NCBI GenBank assembly: GCA_030248215.1
Contig: JASANG010002044.1
Coordinates: forward strand, 38,546-102,545
Origin: Enoplolaimus lenunculus
Lineage: Eukaryota > Nematoda > Enoplea > Enoplida > Thoracostomopsidae
Reading direction: 5' to 3'
DNA: 64,000 nucleotides
The notes beneath the pieces are model-generated. The model was not told where the DNA came from and made no database searches. It worked only from the letters and a program-made list of their open reading frames with translations. Position 1 is the stretch's first letter. Every line of letters begins with the position of its first letter. Positions 23,404 to 51,508 of this stretch are shown here, piece by piece. The position numbers and the translations under genes were made by a program.

Positions 23404-24037
23404 TCACGTATCGGCTAAAACTTTGACGTACAACTTGATTTTAGGCACAATTTTCTCGTCGTTCGCATTATTTACTTGCTCGTTGTTGGTAACTTTTCTC
23501 GTTATTGCACTATTTTGACTCGAATCAACTCGATCTGTCTCATGTGTCGTTGAAGTTTCATTCGATTCAATTACAATCCAATCCATTGCAGCTCGTTTTT
23601 CGTCGAAAATTTGTGCCACATAGCGTCTGCGTACAATTTGACACTTTACGATACTGCCTTCATAGTAGACCAGTGTTACTTCCATGCGTCGTTTCAAATG
23701 TGATGTTGCGATTGGAAACAGTGTTGTATACGCGGTAATAATGAAATTGATTCGTCGAGAGTCTGAGTAGAGCTTTGGCGATATTCCAACTCCAAAAAAT
23801 ACTGACGGATCAGCTGTTTGGTTATGAATTCGAGTGTCGAGCATTAATACGTCACCAGGTGCCAGATTGTCTGATGGGAAATTTGGATTCAAATTGTAAC
23901 TGCCTTCCAGTGTGTACGACGCCGGCAGACGCAGTTGTTGACGTGTGATTGGGATCATATTCAAGTAGCAGTAGTATGGTATGATGTGGATTTTGATACG
24001 GAATTCGAAACAGTCGTCGACACACAGGTTAAGGCAT
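23404..24037 (-). CDS. Unidentified terminal exon (about 210 residues)
   Basis: On the minus strand an acceptor (tttatttccag) ends at 24038 and opens a frame to a TGA at 23404-23406. The frame begins with one base of a split codon (phase 2 donor needed), so it is an exon of a spliced gene rather than a free-standing one. The protein is moderately beta-rich: LAPGDVLMLDTRIHNQ, INFIITAYTTLFPIATSH, MEVTLVYYEG, then a polar Ser/Thr/Asn-rich tail and KIVPKIKLYVKVLADT. No family is recognised. It could be the 3' end of the nuclease-helicase gene upstream on the same strand, but the phase of that gene's second exon (phase 1) does not fit directly. An intermediate exon would be required, or it is a separate gene. 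Confidence 0.5.
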
Positions 24038-24283
24038 CTGGAAATAAAGTTAAAATGAAACTGATTCATTGTGATTGACGAATAGAGCGTTGAAAAGCGA
24101 AGAGGAATCCTATTCTTGTGCGTGGACTCTCGCTAGGAGTCACATTCAACGCCATTATTCACATTGGCACAAAAAAATCCTAATCGCTGTTATGGTTGCA
24201 ACGCCTCCCTGTTTAATTTTCCTTTAACCAGCCAAAAAATTATTGAAAACATTTGAAGATTCGAACGTTTACAAATTTTTTTG

Positions 24284-24412
24284 GCCCATATCCCGGATTT
24301 AAGCTTGAGCCTTAGCCTAAGCCTTAATAAACAAAATATTAATCTAAAGTTTAAGCTTACTCTTGCAGACCCGCAAGAAAACGTTCCGTCACTTGATTTT
24401 TACATGCGCCCT
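24284..24412. mobile_element. Truncated telomere-repeat-bearing MITE fragments
   Basis: Starts GGCCCATATC and ends near TTTTTACATGCGCC with one short CCTAAGCC block inside; no clear target duplication. Comparable decayed fragments lie near 180-250, 21262-21393, 34245-34330 and 62290-62405. Confidence 0.5.
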
Positions 24413-24552
24413 ACCTTGAAATTGAAGTTGCAGTTGCAAGTTCACCCAAATGATAATCGTTAACAAATTTGGCAAGTTGCCAAGTTTTCATATCTGTCGA
24501 CAACAGCTGAAGAGTGTAGTGAAACAAATATTTGCACAGATTCACGTCGGTA

Positions 24553-25597
24553 TTTTCTAAAATAATTTCAAATTTTAAAAAACTTTAAATTACACTTTAA
24601 TACTAAAATATTAATTAATTTCAAATTTTAAAAAAACTTTAAATTACACTTTAATACTACAATATTAATTAATTTCAAATTTTAAAAAAACTTTAAATTA
24701 CACTTTAATACTAAAATATTAATTAATTTTAAATTTTAAAAAAACTTTAAATTACACTTTAATACTAAAATATTAATTAATTTCAAATTTTAAAAAAACT
24801 TTAAATTACACTTTAATACTAAAATATTAATTAATTTCAAATTTTAAAAAACTTTAAATTACACTTTAATACTAAAATATTAATTAATTTCAAATTTTAA
24901 AAAACTTTAAATTACACTTTAATACTAAAATATTAATTAATTTCAAATTTTAAAAAACTTTAAATTACACTTTAATACTAAAATATTAATTTGAAATTTG
25001 AAAAAAACTTTAAATTACACTTTAATACTAAAATATTAATTAATTTCAAATTTTAAAAAACTTTAAATTACACTTTAATACTAAAATATTAATTTGAAAT
25101 TTGAAAAAAACTTTAAATTACACTTTAATACTAAAATATTAATTTCAAATTTTAAAAACTTTAAATTACACTTTAATACTAAAATATTAATTAATTTCAA
25201 ATTTTAAAAAAACTTTAAATTACACTTTAATACTAAAATATTAATTAATTTCAAATTTTAAAAAACTTTAAATTACACTTTAATACTAAAATATTAATTA
25301 ATTTCAAATTTTAAAAAAACTTTAAATTATACTTTAATACTAAAATATTAATTAATTTCAAATTTCAAAAAACTTTAAATTACACTTTAATACTAAAATA
25401 TTAATTTGAAATTTGAAAAAAACTTTAAATTACACTTTAATACTAAAATATTAATTAATTTCAAATTTTAAAAAACTTTAAATTACACTTTAATACTAAA
25501 ATATTAATTTGAAATTTGAAAAAAACTTTAAATTACACTTTAATACTAAAATATTAATTTCAAATTTTAAAAACTTTAAATTACACTTTAATACTGT
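24553..25597. repeat. 54-bp AT-rich satellite, about 20 units
   Basis: The unit (AATTAATTTCAAATTTTAAA followed by AAAACTTTAAATTACACTTT and AATACTAAAATATT) repeats with near identity. A variant with AATTTGAAATTTGAAAAAAA starts at about 24988, 25091, 25403 and 25506. The two 103-bp-spaced pairs lie 415 bp apart, so a block of about eight units was itself duplicated. Only A, T and a single AC/ACAC position break the AT run. Confidence 0.9.
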
Positions 25598-25971
25598 TTG
25601 TATTAAGAACGCTGAATAGTACGATAACCTAAACCCTATAGTCAGAGAAAGCAGACTGATGACACGCAAATTATTCAAAAATCAGTTAAACCTTAAAAAT
25701 CTGCTTTAGTCTGATATGTTTCCTTACGAATTGTTATTCTCATTTAGAAACGATTAACTAATTGTTCGTTTTGGTTTTTTGTCTAAGTATTAATTATTTT
25801 GCGAGCTTGAATTTTTAGTTTTTGCATCTGGTATCATGATGTTAGAACACAACATTAGTTGCGTCAATCTGGGCTGATTTGATTCATGATATTTTAGGGA
25901 GACAAGATGACAAACGAAGGGTAGAAGAACTGAATGCTGGGACATTAAAGCACAGAATTGGAAGACACATA

Positions 25972-26223
25972 CACGGTAAATTTCAATGAGTTGATTAATC
26001 AATTCAGCTAGCGAGTTGGTTATTTCTGTGCTAATAACAGTAAACTTAAACTCACTCTGAGTTGCGTTGATTATCACTCTGAGTTGATTTGACTCTGGGT
26101 GAGTTGAGTAATTAACTCAGAATGAATTTAATCAACTCAAAATTCTGAGTTCTGATAGTCCTAACTCAGACTGAGTGATTCAACTCATTCTGAGTTAAAA
26201 TTAACTCACTGAAATTTACAGTG
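25972..26223. mobile_element. AACTC/GAGTT-rich MITE, copy 3, TA duplication
   Basis: Inverse orientation to copies 1 and 2; ends CACGGTAAATTTCAATGAG and the inverse of CACTGTAAATTTCAGTGAG. TA dinucleotides flank both sides (25970-25971 and 26224-26225), compatible with Tc1/mariner-type mobilisation. Confidence 0.7.
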
Positions 26224-26268
26224 TAATAACGCCAGAACACATGTCAATTGGGCAAAACAATATTAATT

Positions 26269-26632
26269 CGTGGGTGTGTAAACGGATAGTAAAAATAACG
26301 GAAGAGGAAACGGATAGCGATCAAAATAATGGAAACGGTAATAGTGATTAAAATAACAGAACCGGAAACAGAACACGCTTTTTACACTTTTAAAGACAAA
26401 AATAGCGGATGCGTCGAAATGTTTAAGATTCTGGATGACTTTCGTAATGTTTTTTATTTGAATTGCAACAATTACAACATTTCTGTGAGGAAAAGTTAAC
26501 AGATATATCGTGATTTATATATAACGTAAATTTTGAGCGTAAAAAATAGCAAAATTTCCATTATTTCTATAACGGGAACGGAAACCGAAACCGATTTTTA
26601 TCGAAAACCGAAACAGATATTCGGATACACTC
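26269..26632. mobile_element. GGGTGTAAACGGATA-family MITE
   Basis: Begins GTGTGTAAACGGATAG and ends CGGATACACTCT, with AACGGAAACCGAAACCG-type subterminal repeats. Relatives lie at 30880-31447, 36958-37460 and 38766-39295. Confidence 0.6.
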
Positions 26633-26699
26633 TGAATAATCCCAATCAGTAAATCCAGTCAACACCGTCCGCAATCAACCATACTTGGTAATGTTTTAC

Positions 26700-26990
26700 C
26701 TTCAGCATCGCATAAATCAAACACAGCGCAACAACTTTCGTTTCGCAGATTGTTCCGCGCGTTCAGGACAACACTGACTCGCCACGTAATCCCAGGGAAT
26801 TTCGGGTGTTGGACTTTGCGGATTTCGATATTTTTTCGCTTTTGAGTTGCGGTTGCGAGTTGTCGAGTAAAATTTGGAATTCGGATGATTTCGTCGATCG
26901 CGAGAAATTGATCTGCATCAACTATGGGATCAACTGTAGTTGTAGGCAACTGTAGGGCAAAAGCATTTTCTGATTTGTTATCGGATTGCG
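26700..26990 (-). CDS. Internal exon, probable second exon of the nuclease-helicase gene
   Basis: An acceptor (catatatttcag) precedes 26990 and a donor (gtaaaa) follows 26700. The open frame of about 97 codons includes VDADQFLAIDEIIRIPNF and ITWRVSVVLNARNNLRN and ends at DAEG. It starts with two bases of a codon. The upstream long frame has a donor (TAC G|gtaact) at 27275/27274, only eight bases before its stop. Joining G+CG gives an uninterrupted frame across the junction. I therefore propose this exon extends the 1,091-codon frame by about 97 codons. The function of the segment is not recognised. Confidence 0.5.
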
Positions 26991-27266
26991 CTGAAATATA
27001 TGAGTATCTCAGAAGTCGGAATCAGAGACCAAAGTGGGTCTGCGTTTTAGCCGCGGAAATATAATAGCTATAGAAGCTTGACGCTCGAGTCTGATTGGCT
27101 GTCCTGTCTTGTGAAAATTTTGTACTGCGTATACAAGTAGTAAAGTTTCAAATGCGTACACAATTTGCACTTAATTTGCTCATAGTCTAGTTTATTCGGA
27201 AACAGACTAACGAATGAAAAATCTCCAAACTACAAACAGTATTTTTGTCCGTCAGAAAATCTTATA

Positions 27267-30200
27267 TCAGTTACCGTAGTTTTCAGCACCTGTACGCTCA
27301 ACAATCGCATTTTCGCCTTCGACTACGCCACCGTCATTAATCACTATTCCAGGAATCGCACGAAGTTTTTCGATAAGCGTTCGAAATCGCGATAAATCTT
27401 GCTGAGAATGTGCAAAATTGCAATTACACTGCGGTTGCATTTCAAACGCACCGCATATCAGCCACGATACTGCGTATTGGGATCGTCCGAAAATAATATC
27501 CGACGCACGATCAGCCCACATCGATCCAAAATCAACGAAAATACAAACTGAAAATTCGAGACCGGCAAGTATTTCAGCGTGTTGTGTTTTTGAACAAACG
27601 TTCAATGGACTGCGGGTGGAATTTTTGTCTTGAGTGGACGCTCCAGGGTCACACGCGTTGCCAGAAATATCACGGTAATCGTTTCCGCTATTGTCAAAAT
27701 AAACGTGTTTGATCTGTTTTTCGGCATTTAAAATATCTGTCCTAGGATCATGAATCATTGCATCTGTGCTCTGAAAATTGTTCGACAACTGCGATGTGGC
27801 GTTTTCTTGGTCTGGCTCAAGCAAGCGGGTAACAGGTACCCCACGCGCCCGCAAAAACTCAACCAGTAACTCGATATAAATCGTCGGCATATCAGAGTAC
27901 AGCAGTATTTCATGTCCAGGTATAAATTGTAGCCAATATCGCAATTCTCGTTCCGCTGCCGCAAAAATGGAGCTGGCTGAAATTTCTTGACGCTGTTGAA
28001 TGACAACTATTCTTGAGCGAGCGCCATAAATCGGATATCGTTTGCAGTCTTGAGAAATATCGCTGCTATCCATAGTTTCAACTGCGCGCCGTAACAACGA
28101 AACCGTTGGAGTACTTCGCATCGACCACGACAAATAAGCAACTCGAGCTCGCATAATGCTTACAACCCCGTCAATCATGATACGTTCAGTGGCTTGGAAA
28201 CGAGCTGCCAAAGATACCGCACACCATATTCTGGTATTCCGGTTGCGGAACAGAACCGGGACGTGACCACGTGAGCCCATTGTCATTTGATCCAAATCTA
28301 ACAATTCATCGATGAATATCCAAACTGAGCCAGATACACCTTTGCCGTCTTCGCTGTCTTCTTGGTCGAATAGCTTCGATTTTTCGTGTTTGACACAAAA
28401 ATTGTTCGTTCGCTCCCAGTCCCAGTACTCGACAAACGGCCGTTCGGCGCCACAAAAAACTGCCGCTATTGCTGGCTGGACTAGTGTTGATATCATGTTA
28501 TTCGTACTCAACCAGACAATTGTAGGCCGTTGGCGACGGTGCCGTAATCCGTCGAGCGACCGCGATGGCCGTGATCCATTGTTTGCGCCAAAATCGACGA
28601 AACCGCTAGAATTGTTACCGTCATCGTTGATTTTGGCGCCAAAGCTGCTAGCTATCTCATCCATAGCGTTGTTTTTGGTGTCGCTGTCGGAATTGGCGCC
28701 AAAATCGCTAGCTATGGCGTCAGCAATGGCTCGCATTGCGCGTATCAGCAATATTAATGTTTTGCCAGTACCATAACGACCAACGATGACCAAACGCGGC
28801 TCGGTGGATTCCAGGGCGCCTTGCTGTTCGGCGGTGACGTAGGCAAAATAGCGTGACGCAAATGTTCGTATCGGTGGTGACAGTGAAGACACTGAAATGG
28901 AACGGAATGAGTCAGTTGAGAACAGCGAGTCAATTTGATTAATATCAGCTTGATATCCGGTTTGACTTGAACAGTTCCGGTTTGCCGTCAGTTCTGGAAG
29001 CGTCACGGACAAACCCAAGTGTTTCACATTGTTATCTGTAACATCAGTTGGAAATTTTGCATCTGACGGCAAACTACTCGATACTGTATCGTGTAAATTC
29101 TTAGCGATCCTTACAGCTTTATACGGTTCTTCGTCGCAGTCAAACGAGCTTGAATAAGGCTGTACGCTTCCGTTGTGCTGAAGATTTTTCAGTTTCGCCG
29201 GTTTCGCATGCGGTTGTTGCTTTCGAAACCGTTTCAAATAAGGTTGCCGATGTACGATGGTCATGATTTGTTTCCAAACAGCACGTCGGCATAGTTTTGC
29301 TGGATTGAAACAGTAGGAGTTGTTGCCGCTGGCGACTGGAGTGACTGCCGTGTTTACTAGACTGATGTGCCGCTTTTGACAAATTGAACGATCACAATAT
29401 TTTAATTTTTGAAACGCATGAATACCAGCTAACAACTGAAAAGTGACTGTGGAAAAATTGGCTAAATTTCCTACGTTTTGTACGGTTGAATTAGGATCAC
29501 TTAAAGCAGCATTGACACTTTTCCAAAATACGCCGTAGTCAGCGTTGAACACGCAACCAAGTCGAGACAGCTCAGCTGTTATAATTACGGTATTATGTTT
29601 TTTGTCAAAGGTTCCGCTTGATTTGACCGGCTTGACTTGAGGCTTCGAGGCTTCGAGTCCAGATTGCGGTATGGTGGAGTCTTTGACTACCAGAAGTACA
29701 GGGATGATAACAAAGTCGGCACGCGGTACATCGTGAGACGCTGCGCGCTCAGCAATTGTTGATGCAAATTTTGAACAGGTCGAAATAGCGTTTACTGCAG
29801 ATTGCAGTTGACAGAGTGCTTTCTTAAAATATTTCACCGACGGACAATATTTAACTTCGACTGGAACAAACGTTATCGAGCTGGAATCGTTGAAAAATAA
29901 CAGTAGAAAATCGATTTCCAATTCGCCAGAATCGCAAACCGTTGCGCTAGCGGCTCCATGGCCGAACGTCTCAGTTGTTTCAATACCGTCTGACCTATCC
30001 AGGTGAGCAATATCTGCCAGCGAAATGGTTGTGCTTGAGCCGTATTTAAAATTATGAAACATAACCACACCATCAGTGGTTTGGAACATTTTTGGAGACA
30101 TTTCACCGTTGACCTTGCAGTCTTCCGTTATTTGGTTCGTCTCTACAGGCAACCGTTTGCCAGTTTCTCTAAAATCAGGTAAATAATCACCTTCCTGGCT

Positions 30201-30542
30201 CTTTTTTGAACATTGTGAACGTTTCACTGGTGGATTGTTTTGAAAATTAGATCGTCTGTCTTTTAACGCGTCTACTATCGCATGATAAACATGCTGTTCT
30301 ATTTGGTTACCGCTATAGTCGCGTGAATTACCAATTTCACCGCCTGCGATCTCGTATTTTTCAATCATATCCAACGACGGAAAACAAGACGGCACAAAAT
30401 GAGGCGGAAATACGGCGTACGAACACGTTTGTGACTGGAAATTGGAAACATAGCCAGGACTAAGTAAATCTTGAAGGCATGCGTCTATAAACGTCAGGAA
30501 GTCTTTTATGGAAGTTATCTCTGTCAGGATTAAATTCGACAT
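27267..30542 (-). CDS. Large protein with PD-(D/E)XK nuclease-like and SF1 helicase-like domains
   Basis: An unbroken 1,091-codon frame, by far the longest in a window where other genes have exons of 30-340 nt. Residues about 82-230 carry E82, then ELEID (208-211) and VPVEVKY (226-232), fitting the E, D, E-x-K arrangement of PD-(D/E)XK/NERD-type nucleases. Residues 565-1030 fit superfamily-1 helicase motifs: a Q-motif-like TAEQQGAL (570-577), Walker A VGRYGTGKT (587-595), Walker B IFIDE (742-746), WSMRST (806-811) in the place of the YRS motif, GLEF (994-997) for motif V and YAVSWLI (1023-1029) for motif VI. Between motifs I and Ia sits an Asn/Asp/Ser-rich insert with three FGA(N/K) repeats. 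The start Met (30540-30542) is the first in frame. The role is unknown; DNA or RNA processing, possibly defence-related, is inference from domain types only. The true 3' end is probably spliced (see 26700-26990). Confidence 0.75.
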   Translation of the reverse strand: MSNLILTEITSIKDFLTFIDACLQDLLSPGYVSNFQSQTCSYAVFPPHFVPSCFPSLDMIEKYEIAGGEIGNSRDYSGNQIEQHVYHAIVDALKDRRSNFQNNPPVKRSQCSKKSQEGDYLPDFRETGKRLPVETNQITEDCKVNGEMSPKMFQTTDGVVMFHNFKYGSSTTISLADIAHLDRSDGIETTETFGHGAASATVCDSGELEIDFLLLFFNDSSSITFVPVEVKYCPSVKYFKKALCQLQSAVNAISTCSKFASTIAERAASHDVPRADFVIIPVLLVVKDSTIPQSGLEASKPQVKPVKSSGTFDKKHNTVIITAELSRLGCVFNADYGVFWKSVNAALSDPNSTVQNVGNLANFSTVTFQLLAGIHAFQKLKYCDRSICQKRHISLVNTAVTPVASGNNSYCFNPAKLCRRAVWKQIMTIVHRQPYLKRFRKQQPHAKPAKLKNLQHNGSVQPYSSSFDCDEEPYKAVRIAKNLHDTVSSSLPSDAKFPTDVTDNNVKHLGLSVTLPELTANRNCSSQTGYQADINQIDSLFSTDSFRSISVSSLSPPIRTFASRYFAYVTAEQQGALESTEPRLVIVGRYGTGKTLILLIRAMRAIADAIASDFGANSDSDTKNNAMDEIASSFGAKINDDGNNSSGFVDFGANNGSRPSRSLDGLRHRRQRPTIVWLSTNNMISTLVQPAIAAVFCGAERPFVEYWDWERTNNFCVKHEKSKLFDQEDSEDGKGVSGSVWIFIDELLDLDQMTMGSRGHVPVLFRNRNTRIWCAVSLAARFQATERIMIDGVVSIMRARVAYLSWSMRSTPTVSLLRRAVETMDSSDISQDCKRYPIYGARSRIVVIQQRQEISASSIFAAAERELRYWLQFIPGHEILLYSDMPTIYIELLVEFLRARGVPVTRLLEPDQENATSQLSNNFQSTDAMIHDPRTDILNAEKQIKHVYFDNSGNDYRDISGNACDPGASTQDKNSTRSPLNVCSKTQHAEILAGLEFSVCIFVDFGSMWADRASDIIFGRSQYAVSWLICGAFEMQPQCNCNFAHSQQDLSRFRTLIEKLRAIPGIVINDGGVVEGENAIVERTGAENYGN

Positions 30543-30671
30543 TTTAAACTACAAAAGTTGCAGCGGTCTATAAGCTGATTAACGTTTAATCGATAAAAAA
30601 TTATGTCGTAGTTCATGGATTGGTAAAATGTCTAAAATGTTGTCAGTACAGTGCTAATACCATGGGTGCTA

Positions 30672-30871
30672 CACTGCAAAAAATGGTGAGTCAAATTGAC
30701 TTTCTCCGAAATAGGCTTTTTCTGACTACACAACCTGAGTCAAAATTCGACTCCGCCAGAATCAAATTCGACTCAATTTGACACTGGCGGGGTCGAATTT
30801 TGACTCAGTTTTTGTAGTCAGGAAAAGCCTATTTCGGAGAGAGTCAATTTGACTCACCATTATTTGCAGTG
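30672..30871. mobile_element. Near-perfect hairpin MITE, TA target duplication, copy 1
   Basis: The 200-bp element is almost entirely an inverted repeat: arms of about 90 bp beginning CACTGCAAAAAATGGTGAGT, sharing GACTACACAA/TTTTTGTAGTC and CCGAAATAGGC, and a short centre. It is flanked by TA on both sides. A second copy is at 63549-63745. It lies 130 bp upstream of the start of the nuclease-helicase frame. Confidence 0.88.
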
Positions 30872-30879
30872 TACTCAAT

Positions 30880-45607: not shown

Positions 45608-48600
45608 ATGAATAATGTCAGAGTTGTTGAAAGTGGCAGTCCATACTCATTGGATTATAGAATTTTTTATGGTTAGTGAGTTATCTTGTTATCTTTTTTT
45701 TAATACCTAGGGAATTTCTATGTTTGGGTTTCGCTATATTGTCAGCCGTGGGTCAGTTGCTTCGATTACCATGTTCTTCATAAAAAATCCCTGTTTATCG
45801 GAAGTGAATGTTCTGTGCGGCATTCGCGTCGACTCCGCATAATGGCGGATTTACGTATATACCACCTTAGCCAGATATTGTGAAATATCGGATTTGCCTA
45901 TCAGAACCAGAATTACGGTTGTACCTAAATCATAACCACTTGCTTTCTTTATCCTCGTCTGTAAGCATGCAATATGCGTTTTATTTCAGAAAGTGAAACA
46001 GGTGTGCCGATCTCACCATGGCATGATATTCCAATTTATGCTGATGAATCGCAGAGGATTTACAATATGGTGTGCGAGATTCCAAGGTGGACAAACGCTA
46101 AGATGGAGGTAAGTTTAGTAGCATATGAGAGCCGGTTCGATCTAATTTGTGCAGAAGTTTTTTGGTTAATTACTAATATATAAAAAATTCTCCGTTGAAA
46201 TTGTGGTTGTTATGTGTACGTAACGTCCATGTTTTTGACGACCTTGATCTTAAATAGATGTGTGTCTACGCACAGGGTTTGACCGGATAGTAATTTACCA
46301 CTTTTACTTCGTGACTTGCCCGTTCAATTGCAGCAACATGTTACGTAAATACGGTCTCCTGATGCTGATTTTTTGCCTGATAGTAAACCGGAGCCGGAAA
46401 TCCGGTCGGAATCTCTCTACGCACCATGTGTATAATTTCAGATTGCTACAGCGGAAAGATTAAATCCAATCAAACAGGATATCAAAAAAGGCGCGTTACG
46501 TTTTGTAAACAACGTTTTTCCGCATAAGGGATACATTTGGAATTATGGAGCTATCCCTCAGGTCGGTTTTTGATTATACATGTTACTTCAAATACAAATG
46601 TAACCACCTATCTTTAACGTCGGTATATATGTGATAATAGGTCAAACCATGGCGGCAATAAAGTTCGGATTCGGCAAAAATTTACGGTTCAAATTCGTTT
46701 GTGAAAAGGCATAATTTAACAATTGTGAAAAAGCCGAATACTGATTTAATAGAAGGCTCAAATCCCCTCAAGTGATTATTTTATTACGACACCAACGGAT
46801 AACAAAAATGCGCAGAAGAATTTTTAACTGGGGGGTCCTGGGGGGCAGGCTTAAAATTTTGCAAACCGACTTTTTGGACCATTTTTTCATTCTAGACCGT
46901 GTTTCCAACTCAACGTAAGATTACTCATCGCTCAACATGACAAAAATTTCTCGCAAACGCTAATAACAATAATTTTAACTAATATTACGTATATACTGAC
47001 AACTTAACCAGAAGTTGAAAGAAGCACAATTATATAAAATATAGATAATCTATAATTGAAACTGTGATTAATATATATTTTGTATATTAGTCACAGCTTC
47101 AATTTATAATAAGGCTCAGGCGGGTTGAACTTGCTGCTGCAAGGTACTTTCGAATGCTGTATGCCCTGAAACGTCTTTATATAATTGTGGTTTTTCAGTT
47201 CATTATTGAATTGTAATAGTTACTACGGGTATTTGTAACGCTATTAAAAATTATGAGTACTCAGCGTAACATAAAATCATATTTTGCCGAATGTCCGCCT
47301 CAAAAGAAGTCCAGGTCTTTACGTTTTAACATTGAAAATTTTTGACCTAGAAAAGTCGGCGAAGGTACGGAATATCGACCCCCCTGGGATTTCATTAAAA
47401 ACCACCCTATCCGACATAGTTTTATCCGCTGAGTTCAAAAATGCCATCCACATCTCTGCACATCGTCCGGTTCTTTAGTTATGGCAACCGGAATTTCCGC
47501 CTATTTAATACACACAATACACAATACTGAACACACTTAATTGTACATATGTATATGTACAGCACATAGCTGTAGTATATCTACAGAAAATCAATTGTTT
47601 TTTGTGGTTAGCTATTGGCTTGATCGGTTAAACGTTTGGTTTTCCGAACCTTTAGCACCTGTTGGGTCAAGGGATCGATTCCATCCTGAGAATAAGTTTT
47701 TCTCAATTTTTTCTTTATTTTAAGATTTATAGCCTGATATTGCAATAAAAAGATAAAATATCAATTTCAAACGATTCCAATTAAAAAAATGAAGTATATG
47801 TTTCATGATTTCTTTGACGTTTCCAATGAAAAGAACAATAGCTTTTCAATTGTTTTCAATGGTGATCAGGACCATGATAGATTTGGCACTATTTCTGTTC
47901 ACTTAACTAATAATTGTTTTTTCACGCGCTATCCCGAGGTTTTCCGAATCGAAACCATGGACGATTTGTATTTGATTTTACTTGACACAAGGTCTGTTAT
48001 CGCGATGCTTGCCGAAATTGACGTGCTAAAGCAACGCACTTGCTGTCGGGTTCGCTCAAGAATCCGAGAATCTGAAGTAAATTTGGTTTTTTGCGCAATT
48101 TGGGTTTAGAGTTACAATTTTGGCGGTATATAATGTTGTCTACTGTTAGAAGTTCGTACGGAATCTCGCTCGCTCCGCTCGCAATGTTATTTAATTACTG
48201 TTCTCTGGCGATTCACGGTTGCTATCAGAGGTGACATTCGTTACATGAGTAGCCCAAGCGATAAAATACGAAATGCGAAACTTCCCCACGAGGGTTGATG
48301 CCTGAAACCTCTATATTTTAGGAATTTAAGGATGGTTACGTCTGGCGTTGTCCACAGTGTCGCTCGCGAGCTTCTGTACATTCAGCATCTGTGTTTGAAA
48401 ATTCGAACCTTAGCTTAGACAATTTGCTACTCATTTTATTCTACTGGTCGCATAAAACTCCTGTGTGCAATGCGTCTAGTTTGTCCGGAATTCGAAAAGC
48501 TACGCTCATTCAGTAGTACAACAGATTCAGGAAACTTTGCAGTACGGAGCTACTGAATTCGTCTGATCTTTTTCGATTTGGCGGTGCGGGTGTTATCGTA

Positions 48601-51508
48601 CAAGTAGACGAGAGTGTTGTGGCTCGTAGAAAATACCAACGTGGAAGACTAGTGCCATGTCAATGTGTCCTAGGCATTTATGACACAACCCAGTGTCGCG
48701 GTTTCATTCATCTTGTGGACCGTAGGGACGCACAGACACTTATTCGTATTATTCAAAACTTCGTGTTACCAGGCACAACTATTTGGACAGATGAGTGGGC
48801 CGCATACAGAGGACTTGGTAATCTTCTCGGTGTCAACCCGCCGTATATTCACCAAACAGCTAACCACTCACGCAATTTTGTCCATCCCACAACAGGAACG
48901 TGCACAAATGCAGTTGAAAGCTACTGGAGCCGCATGAAAAGATTAACGCGATACACCGGTTGCAGAGAAATGATACCTAATCTTTGTGATGAATTTATGT
49001 GGAGATAACGATTTGGACAAAGGGGAATTGGACCCTGGCGTAATATGTTATTGTGCTTAGCGTGCTATGCGTAATGATATCTTGGCGTTTGAAATTGATA
49101 TTTTATCTTTTTATTGCAATATAAGGCGACAAATCTTAAAATAAAGAAAAAATTGAGAAAAACTTATTCTCAGGATGGAATCGATCCCTTGACCCAACAG
49201 GTGCTAAAGGTTCGGAAAACCAAACGTTTAACCGATCATGCCAATAGGTAACCACAAAAAACAATTGATTTTCCGTAGATATACTACAGCTATGTGCTGT
49301 GCATATACATATGTACAGTTAAGTGCGTTCAGTATTGTGTATTGTGTGTATTAAATAGGCGTAAATTACGGTTGCCATAACTAAAGAACCGGACGTCGTG
49401 CAGAGATGCGGATGGCATTTTTGAACTCAGCGGATAAAACTATGTCGGATAGGGTGGTGTTTAAGGAAATCCTAGGGGGTCGATATTCCGTACCTTTGCC
49501 GAAAATTCTTGGGGGGGGCAGCAAAAAATTTGCTGGGGGACGGCCGAAAATTCGCCGGGGGGCCTTTCCTGGGGGCGGCAAAATTTTCGCCGGGGAAAAA
49601 ATGAAAATTTCGGAAAGTGCTGGGCCCCCCCGCTGTGGAGAAGCCAGTATCTATTCGGTCACTTGTAATGTGAAATCCACTCTATTCTGGGTTAAAAAGC
49701 TATCAAATAAACATATATACTTTCAAGGCAACTATATCTTACTGCTTTCAAATAGAAATACGCTTTAATTGAAGATATTACACTATTAATCTGGCTTCTC
49801 CACAGCGGGGAGGGCCAGCACTTTTCGAAATGTTCATTTTCCCCCCGGCGAAAATTTTGCCGCCCCCAGGAAAGGCACCCCGGCGAATTTTTGGCCGCCC
49901 CCCAACAAAATGCCCCCCAGCAAATTTTTTTGCTGGGGGCCTTCAGGACTTTTCTAGGTCAAAAGTTTTCAATGTTAAAACGTAAAGATCTGAACTTCTT
50001 TAGAGGCGGACATTCGCAAAATATGAGTTTATATTACGCTGAGTACTCATAATTTTTAATAGCGTTACAAATACCCGTAGTAACTAATACAATTCAGTAA
50101 TGAACTGAAAAAGCACAATTATATAAAGACCGTTTCAGGGCATACAGCATTCGAAAGTACCTTGCAGCAGCAAGTTCAACCCGCCTGAGCCTTATTATAA
50201 ATTGAAGCTGTGACTAATATACAAAATATATATTAATCACAGTTTCAATTATAGATTATCTATATTTTATATAATTGTGCTTCTTTCAACTTCTGGTTAA
50301 GTTGTCAGTATATACGTAATATTAGTTAAAATTATTGTTATTAGCGTTTGCGAGAAATTTTTGTCATGTTGAGCGATGAGTAATCTTACGTTGAGTTGGA
50401 AACACGGTCTAGAATGAAAAAATGGTCCAAAATGTCGGTTTGGAAAATTCTAAGCCTGCCCCCCAGGATCCCCCAGATCATCTGGGGGGGCACTAAAACT
50501 GCCCCCCAGGAAACTCCTGGGGGGCCCCCAGGAAACACCCCCGGCGGAAATGCTCAAGCTGTGGGGAAGCCAGTTAATATCGCTTCGCTTGAACATTGAT
50601 TGCAATGTTAGTGTGTTTATTGTAGACATGGGAAAATCCGAAGCATGTTGACCCCGATACTGGTGCGGTTGGCGACAACGATCCTATTGATATTTGTGAA
50701 GTTGGCCATAGGGTAAATTATGCGTATATGATTAGCACTCATCACATGCATGTACGTTGTTCTATGAATGACAAAGGGTTCGGTGCTTTAAGCGGAAAAC
50801 GGAACATTATATATTTGTTTGCGCCACTCTACGTATCCGCTTTGGTCCTGTATCCAAACCTTCTGTCCTGGTACGACCGGATATTTGTTTTTCGGAACCG
50901 GATAGCGAATGTTTTACCGGAACCGGATTATAGCATCTAAATTTTTCAATCGCACAATAGTATGTGTTTCACTGAATTAGAATTAATTATGAATTTGAAT
51001 TTTTCATTTTTACTGCATTGTATGAATACTTGCCCGGATCCATATCCCTTGGTATGTGTATAACAGCGACCCTCACTTCCCAGAGGACTTTTCTACGTTT
51101 TATATATACTTACGTATACACTTGTGCTAGGTTTTACTAACAACGCGCGCAAATGTATGAATAATATGAGTAAGACAATGTTACGTATCAGGAACAAGGC
51201 AGTGTTTCATTTGCTACTGATTTTGACAAATTTCCTACAAAATGTCAGAATTTAACCAGATGCATAATGAACTCCTGGCTGGTTGGTTAATTTTCTAATT
51301 CCGGTTTCCATACGGCGCATTGTTTCTATTTTAGATTTGCGAACGCGGAGAAATTATTCAAGTGAAAGTACTTGGAACGCTTGCCCTCATTGATGAAGGT
51401 TGGTTACTTTTGTGCTTCGACGAAGGTTGTTTCACAAATAATAGAGCAAAAAATACGATTAAAATGAAATTTTTGGTGAAATGCAGTTTTACTTTCCGGT
51501 CCCGGTAA

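Follow-up and report, generated by a model that had tools for sequence, protein, structure and literature searches.

A predicted spliced gene with a putative nuclease-helicase layout, and its paralogues, in the nematode Enoplolaimus lenunculus

Nuclease-helicase systems and the nematode locus

A PD-(D/E)XK nuclease is combined with a superfamily 1 (SF1) helicase, in one protein or one complex, in Dna2 and in AddAB/RecBCD, and the UvrD-like helicase GajB of Gabija works with a separate nuclease, GajA. In Hachiman HamAB a sensor helicase controls an effector nuclease (PMC12278908). Here we analyze a window of 64,000 nucleotides (nt) from the nematode Enoplolaimus lenunculus (assembly GCA_030248215.1, contig JASANG010002044.1, positions 38,546 to 102,545 of the forward strand), in which a frame of 1,091 codons is read as the very long first exon of a minus-strand gene predicted to have four exons (30542-23404, about 1,444 amino acids, aa). 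The reading that we favor, with a somewhat better than even chance of being right, is that the gene encodes a PD-(D/E)XK-like nuclease domain, a UvrD-like SF1 helicase module and a conserved tail, and that it belongs to a small family. The combination of nuclease and SF1 helicase is already known; a spliced animal version with a conserved tail is new to the families searched.

Searching the genome assembly (296 Mb, 3,185 contigs) with the window protein returned 18 matching pieces, located at the window itself and on three other contigs, here called C262, C901 and C1002, and a repeat search with exon A2 of C901 returned the same four places and no others. The best reading of these matches is that the gene belongs to a small family, with three or more loci in the assembly. 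The most useful copy for comparison is that on C901, which is open throughout, with five predicted exons (phases 0, 1, 1 and 2), one stop, a last exon of 634 nt and a product of 1,305 aa.

We can use these copies to compare the locus with the described systems. GajB is alike in the region of the Q motif and Walker A, and gives the best helicase-family score for a hand-excised helicase piece of C901 (E 1.2e-6), but the match covers about 50 residues, and in the worm protein the nuclease is fused and of PD-(D/E)XK type. No GajA model matched the 1,091-aa window protein in a PADLOC scan, and no search aimed at a GajA-like gene was made. The bacterial NERD-UvrD and DRT-associated NERD-helicase proteins (PADLOC C3a187 and RTasNERD-Hel) have the same order of nuclease and then UvrD-like helicase on one chain, with weak matches to the helicase part of C901 (0.019 and 0.0031). 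They differ in their NERD domain (PF08378), for which we found no match in the Pfam scans or in a six-frame search of the genome at E up to 10, and the C-terminal tail of the worm protein is absent from their profiles, to judge by the matches. Shedu SduA, PDC-S01 and the Cas4-type PD-(D/E)XK nucleases share the E...D...E-x-K pattern and are weakly matched by the nuclease piece of C901, but they have other partners and the nuclease piece of the window is unmatched. Dna2 and AddAB/RecBCD are alike in pairing the same two enzyme types, though their families were unmatched in the Pfam and PDB searches. HamAB consists of two separate proteins and is a functional analogy only; no sequence match to it was obtained (PMC12278908).

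The putative nuclease and helicase regions

An earlier note, made from the letters of this DNA alone, had pointed to a single frame of 3.3 kb, and this frame is confirmed, running on the minus strand from 30542 to 27267. The stop-to-stop frames of the window are, longest first, 1093, 242, 163, 161 and 146 codons, the one of 242 codons being a further exon of the same predicted gene. First-order Markov simulations of the local 5.3 kb (200 runs) gave a longest frame of 132 codons on average and of 195 at most. Set against these simulations and the length of the runner-up, a frame of 1,091 codons lies far outside what chance would give.

Of the 1220 positions at which the proteins of the window and C901 align, 412 (34%) hold the same residue. 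Identity is highest at residues 556-612, which hold the Q motif and Walker A (50.9%), and lowest at residues 261-340 (18.6%) and 906-985 (18.8%), while the tail reaches 38.0% at residues 1117-1250 and 38.7% at residues 1251-1400. Exon A is under purifying selection, which is looser in the recent copies: the ratio of nonsynonymous to synonymous substitution rates (dN/dS) is 0.34 over 495 codons of the helicase part, where dS is already 2.06, and 0.55 (15 synonymous and 32 nonsynonymous changes) and 0.50 (10 and 18) between recent copies. For the nuclease part dS is saturated.

All residues that had been named in the earlier note are found at their positions. Specifically, the nuclease-like region contains GNQIEQ at residues 78-83 (with E82), GELEIDF at 206-212 (D211) and VPVEVK at 226-231 (E229 and K231). 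These four core residues of the PD-(D/E)XK type are kept in the exons of both C901 and C1002, and the strings GNQxE, E-I-D-F and VPxEVK are common to the window and C901. The hand-excised nuclease piece of C901 gave weak profile matches to PDC-S01 (0.0013) and Cas4b (0.023) in PADLOC and to SduA_C (0.077) in Pfam. On balance, the region is probably a PD-(D/E)XK nuclease.

The helicase-like strings are TAEQQ (570-574), GRYGTGKT (588-595), IFIDE (742-746), LSWSMRS (804-810), AGLEF (993-997) and GRSQY (1019-1023). The Q motif, Walker A and the DE of Walker B (IDE, 744-746) are thus present, as expected of an SF1 UvrD-like protein, and all are kept in C901, which shares the strings TxEQxxALEST, GxYGxGKT, IDE, QxTMGSR, LSWxxRS, YGARSRI, LAGLE and RSxYAxSW. 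C901 also retains the motif IV- and VI-like arginines and the motif V GLE, in a second half over which no profile matches. UvrD (PF00580) is found with 0.035 for the hand-excised helicase piece of the window, and also with 0.023, both below the curated cut-off. In PADLOC the helicase piece of C901 matches typeIV_DinG (6.5e-5) in addition to GajB and the NERD-helicases, and in Pfam the hand-excised NTPase (nucleoside triphosphatase) piece of C901 matches DEAD (5.2e-6; 26.7 bits for a cut-off of 26) and ResIII (2.2e-4). On a six-row alignment Pfam recognizes DEAD in three of six members (best 3.1e-4) and UvrD in two (0.034), and nothing in the window protein. By sequence, the PDB returned PcrA (0.74 and 1.6), ORC4 (0.6) and PhoH (0.75). 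It is near certain that the region is a P-loop NTPase, and an SF1 helicase is likely.

Several results weigh against the nuclease-helicase reading. Most of the profile support, weak as it is, stems from the hand-excised pieces of C901. The whole window protein of 1,091 aa matched no family in Pfam, NCBIfam, PADLOC or PHROGs, and its hand-excised nuclease piece matched none in Pfam or PADLOC. Motif III of the UvrD type (GDxxQ) was not recognized in the window protein, so the full set of SF1 motifs that had been claimed is unconfirmed. The helicase profile matches span mostly the Q motif and Walker A, and the C901 pieces met only unrelated P-loop families in NCBIfam (0.006 or worse) and no UvrD model. 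The hhalign probabilities against E. coli UvrD (9.5%), Rep (6.2%) and HelD (18.3%) do not set SF1 apart from DEAD-box RhlB (16.7%). A single-sequence AlphaFold2 model of residues 56-300 has a mean predicted local distance difference test score (pLDDT) of 32.3, too poor for a fold search, and another single-sequence model, at 31.9, was useless. The layout proposed earlier, a nuclease followed by an SF1 helicase, stands in part: its residues are kept in a copy of 34% identity and the weak profile matches agree with it.

The alternative that survives best leaves the gene structure as it is but takes the enzyme reading to be wrong, the protein being a different P-loop NTPase, of the STAND or AAA type for instance, or else a degenerate helicase, and serving as a sensor or scaffold whose nuclease-like domain is inactive. 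The absence of a recognizable motif III, the long low-complexity inserts and the unspecific P-loop matches in NCBIfam speak for it, and the Pfam models nSTAND, ORC-CDC6, PhoH and IstB score the C901 piece only somewhat below the helicases. However, the best scores do come from the GajB/UvrD and DEAD models, the motif V GLE is kept in C901, and the other kept residues, i.e., the motif IV- and VI-like arginines in C901 and the D and E-x-K set in C901 and C1002, suggest an active enzyme. We regard this alternative as unlikely, although it deserves to be taken seriously, and continue with the nuclease-helicase reading, in which the chemistry of both domains is predicted from the motifs.

Exon structure and the conserved tail

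The four predicted exons are joined through consensus-like splice sites (Table 1), with phases 1, 1 and 2, into one frame of 1,444 aa that is open up to a single final stop. Because the downstream exons join in this manner, the giant frame is read as a first exon and not as an intronless gene. The donor of exon A is not certain: the site at 27275 is preferred, and an alternative at 27290 (ACAG/GTGCTG, the slash marking the exon boundary) is likewise in phase 1.

Comparison of the copies supports the same structure. Two frames further downstream, at 26662-27021 and 23407-24132 and again on the minus strand, have relatives adjoining the paralogues, with a fourth conserved block between them, and the order A-B-B2-C is common to the window, C901 and C262. 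The window and C901 agree in the order, strand and phase of exons B, B2 and C, the shared junctions being in phases 1, 1 and 2 in both, and exons B and B2 of C262 have the same boundaries. When exons B, B2 and C of the window and C901 are aligned, the score is 562, as against a maximum of 53 in 200 shuffles. The earlier description of the gene as nearly intronless is not borne out, with four predicted exons here and five in C901, whose additional phase-0 intron (ATG/GTAAGT...TTTTAG/AAG) falls in the linker that is uninterrupted in exon A of the window. A cryptic in-frame intron within exon A was also considered and rejected: the sole strong candidate, codons 118 to 228, would remove D211, which C901 keeps. 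The figure of about 150 nt given before for exons of neighboring genes is in line with the median exon of 161 bp in Romanomermis culicivorax (PMC3890508). The pitfall of taking a giant exon for an intronless foreign gene is corrected by comparing copies within one genome, which points to an ordinary spliced gene.

Exons B, B2 and C could also form a second gene, situated 3' of a nuclease-helicase gene without introns and duplicated together with it. Exon A does have its own stop at 27267, and the similarity to C901 drops after PGIV, to 22.6% identity over residues 1066-1116. However, only 277 nt separate that stop from exon B, and in the frame of exon B, read from stop to stop, no Met precedes the conserved block, so exon B is not a ready-made separate gene. 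In addition, the phase-1 donors that end exon A read into the phase-1 acceptors of exon B in both the window and C901, and the three copies mentioned above keep the exon order. We consider two adjacent genes improbable and retain the single four-exon gene.

The protein ends in a conserved tail of about 330 aa, apparently rich in beta structure, which may act as an adaptor. By sequence, the tail found nothing in the PDB. A MATH domain (PF00917) was suggested for exons B-B2-C by its consensus, but there was no profile or PDB-sequence match and we do not claim it; a genome search with PF00917 gave no match anywhere, controls included, and is uninformative.

The 3' part of intron 2 is occupied by an AT-rich 54-bp tandem array (24563-25595, about 20 copies). 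Its units carry the splice-acceptor-like AATATTTTAG on the gene strand (19 matches with at most two mismatches), and the array reaches to within a few bases of the predicted acceptor at 24557.

Paralogues, origin and possible role

At the DNA level the window copy has no similarity to the other copies except for dispersed repeats. Among those others, C262 and C1002 agree at about 98%, and C901 has 4.5 kb in common with C262 at 97%. Exons A1-A2 of C901 and C262 (C262 4501-4908) are about 97% alike but their exons C only 57%; the A1-A2 segment was therefore copied or converted independently of the 3' exons, which points to segmental copying or gene conversion between paralogues. In C1002 there is an in-frame TAA and the helicase exon breaks off into unrelated sequence, while C262 begins at the contig end and has exon A1 in broken frames, a partial extra copy of exon A2 and an exon C acceptor without AG. 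The two look like a near-identical, decayed pair.

Outside this genome we found no relative. In three homologue searches the best 7989, 7998 and 7993 candidates sharing 5-residue words were scored, with none under E 0.1, 1 or 10. The window protein found nothing among plasmids by tblastn at E up to 1 and no pattern match in viral contigs, and a search of genome contigs with query A3 gave 53 pattern matches, none of them confirmed. Among plasmids and phages, the lowest E values for pieces of C901 were 0.09 (with 8 records), 3 (with 2) and 0.3 (with 76), which we take as noise; the one such record inspected had no helicase annotation. These collections consist mostly of prokaryotic, viral and metagenomic sequences, which leaves room for relatives in other animals. 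The statement that no named animal family is recognizable still holds, with Pfam and the PDB as the eukaryotic protein coverage, and the open-licence literature searched yielded no account of such a nematode family.

A near-perfect palindrome (30670-30873, 99-nt arms, 92%), which ends 128 nt upstream of the ATG, is a fold-back repeat dispersed in the genome, with 4279 first-look candidates and matches at all 40 of the 40 places scored.

The suggestion of a horizontal, retroposed or mobile origin finds no support: no bacterial or viral relative turned up in the collections searched, the introns are consistent in phase, and the gene occurs at only three or four genomic places. A gene encoded by a mobile element as its helicase-nuclease could account for the copied or converted segment, A1-A2 being 97-98% alike in C901, C262 and C1002 despite the 57% in exon C of C901 and C262, and the region is crowded with repeats. 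However, the gene has introns, it is confined to the window, C901, C262 and C1002, the window copy lacks DNA similarity to the others beyond dispersed repeats, and the upstream palindrome is an independent repeat, which together make such an origin very improbable. Recent horizontal acquisition or retroposition is the least probable of all, since against the exon of 3.27 kb, the bacterial-style layout and the C901 intron in the matching region, which the window copy could have lost, stand three predicted introns with conserved phases where a retrogene would have none, the lack of a relative in the bacterial and viral collections, and third codon positions that are not GC-rich (GC3 0.417).

If the nuclease-helicase reading is correct, the helicase module would bind a nucleic-acid end, gap or single strand and move with ATP, this movement would feed or unlock the fused nuclease, as in Hachiman HamAB or in proteins of the AddAB/NERD-UvrD kind, and the tail would recruit a target or partner. 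Both the coupling and a role in nucleic-acid defence or repair are speculation. Nematodes are known for fast-evolving defence genes, and the rapid divergence, copying and decay of the loci would fit an arms race; they may suit a defence gene, but repair is equally possible. It is doubtful, though conceivable, that the gene represents an animal family not described before, with a PD-(D/E)XK nuclease, an SF1 helicase and an adaptor tail rich in beta structure on a single chain, which would parallel the nuclease-helicase defence systems of bacteria and degrade nucleic acid that is foreign or damaged. A nuclease-helicase effector in a nematode would bear on how far bacterial defence logic recurs in animals, and, if expression and activity were confirmed, an animal family of fused nuclease-helicases would have been missed by standard annotation.

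Table 1. Predicted features of the gene, with positions in the window; slashes mark exon boundaries, and numbers after contig names are E values of the relatives.
Feature	Position	Strand	Remarks
Exon A	27275..30542	-	3,268 nt; from the start ATG through the N-terminal region, nuclease-like domain and linker to the helicase-like domain; colinear with exons A1+A2 of C901
PD-(D/E)XK-like nuclease region	29673..30377	-	residues 56-290; E82, D211, E229-x-K231; poorly conserved insert at about 101-200
SF1-helicase-like region	27348..28877	-	residues 556-1065; Q motif, I, II, IV, V, VI-like; inserts at about 613-672 and 906-985
Walker A GRYGTGKT	28758..28781	-	residues 588-595; GPYGSGKT in C901
Exon A donor	27275	-	ACTACG/GTAACTGA; preferred site
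Intron 1	26991..27274	-	phase 1; GTAACT...TTTCAG
Exon B	26700..26990	-	291 nt; first part of conserved C-terminal tail; C262 3.4e-9, C1002 7.2e-9, C901 3.5e-7
Intron 2	24557..26699	-	phase 1; 3' part occupied by the tandem array
Exon B2	24415..24556	-	142 nt; TTTTAG/.../GTAGGG; C901 2.7e-15, C262 2.8e-13
Intron 3	24038..24414	-	phase 2
Exon C	23404..24037	-	634 nt, length equal to C901 exon C; carries stop codon; C901 8.4e-39, C262 6.8e-29

Other features of the window

Rfam gave no match anywhere in the window. An ISXO2-like (IS1595) transposase domain lies on the plus strand at 48517-49005 (E 6.5e-18), and an exon-like frame on the minus strand at 41815-42120 matches Arginine and glutamate-rich 1 (ARGLU; E 8.5e-7, above the cut-off). 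A frame at 50626-50937 contains an inorganic-pyrophosphatase-like string and has no Pfam match at 0.1. The nematode telomere unit is TTAGGC; the genome holds 5,446 overlapping matches to (TTAGGC)6 (2,431 forward and 3,015 reverse, with 0 for the reversed-pattern control), in keeping with a nematode source, and the window itself only degenerate TTAGGC-like arrays. A 44-bp tandem array of 24.6 copies with 96% matches occupies 1774-2854.

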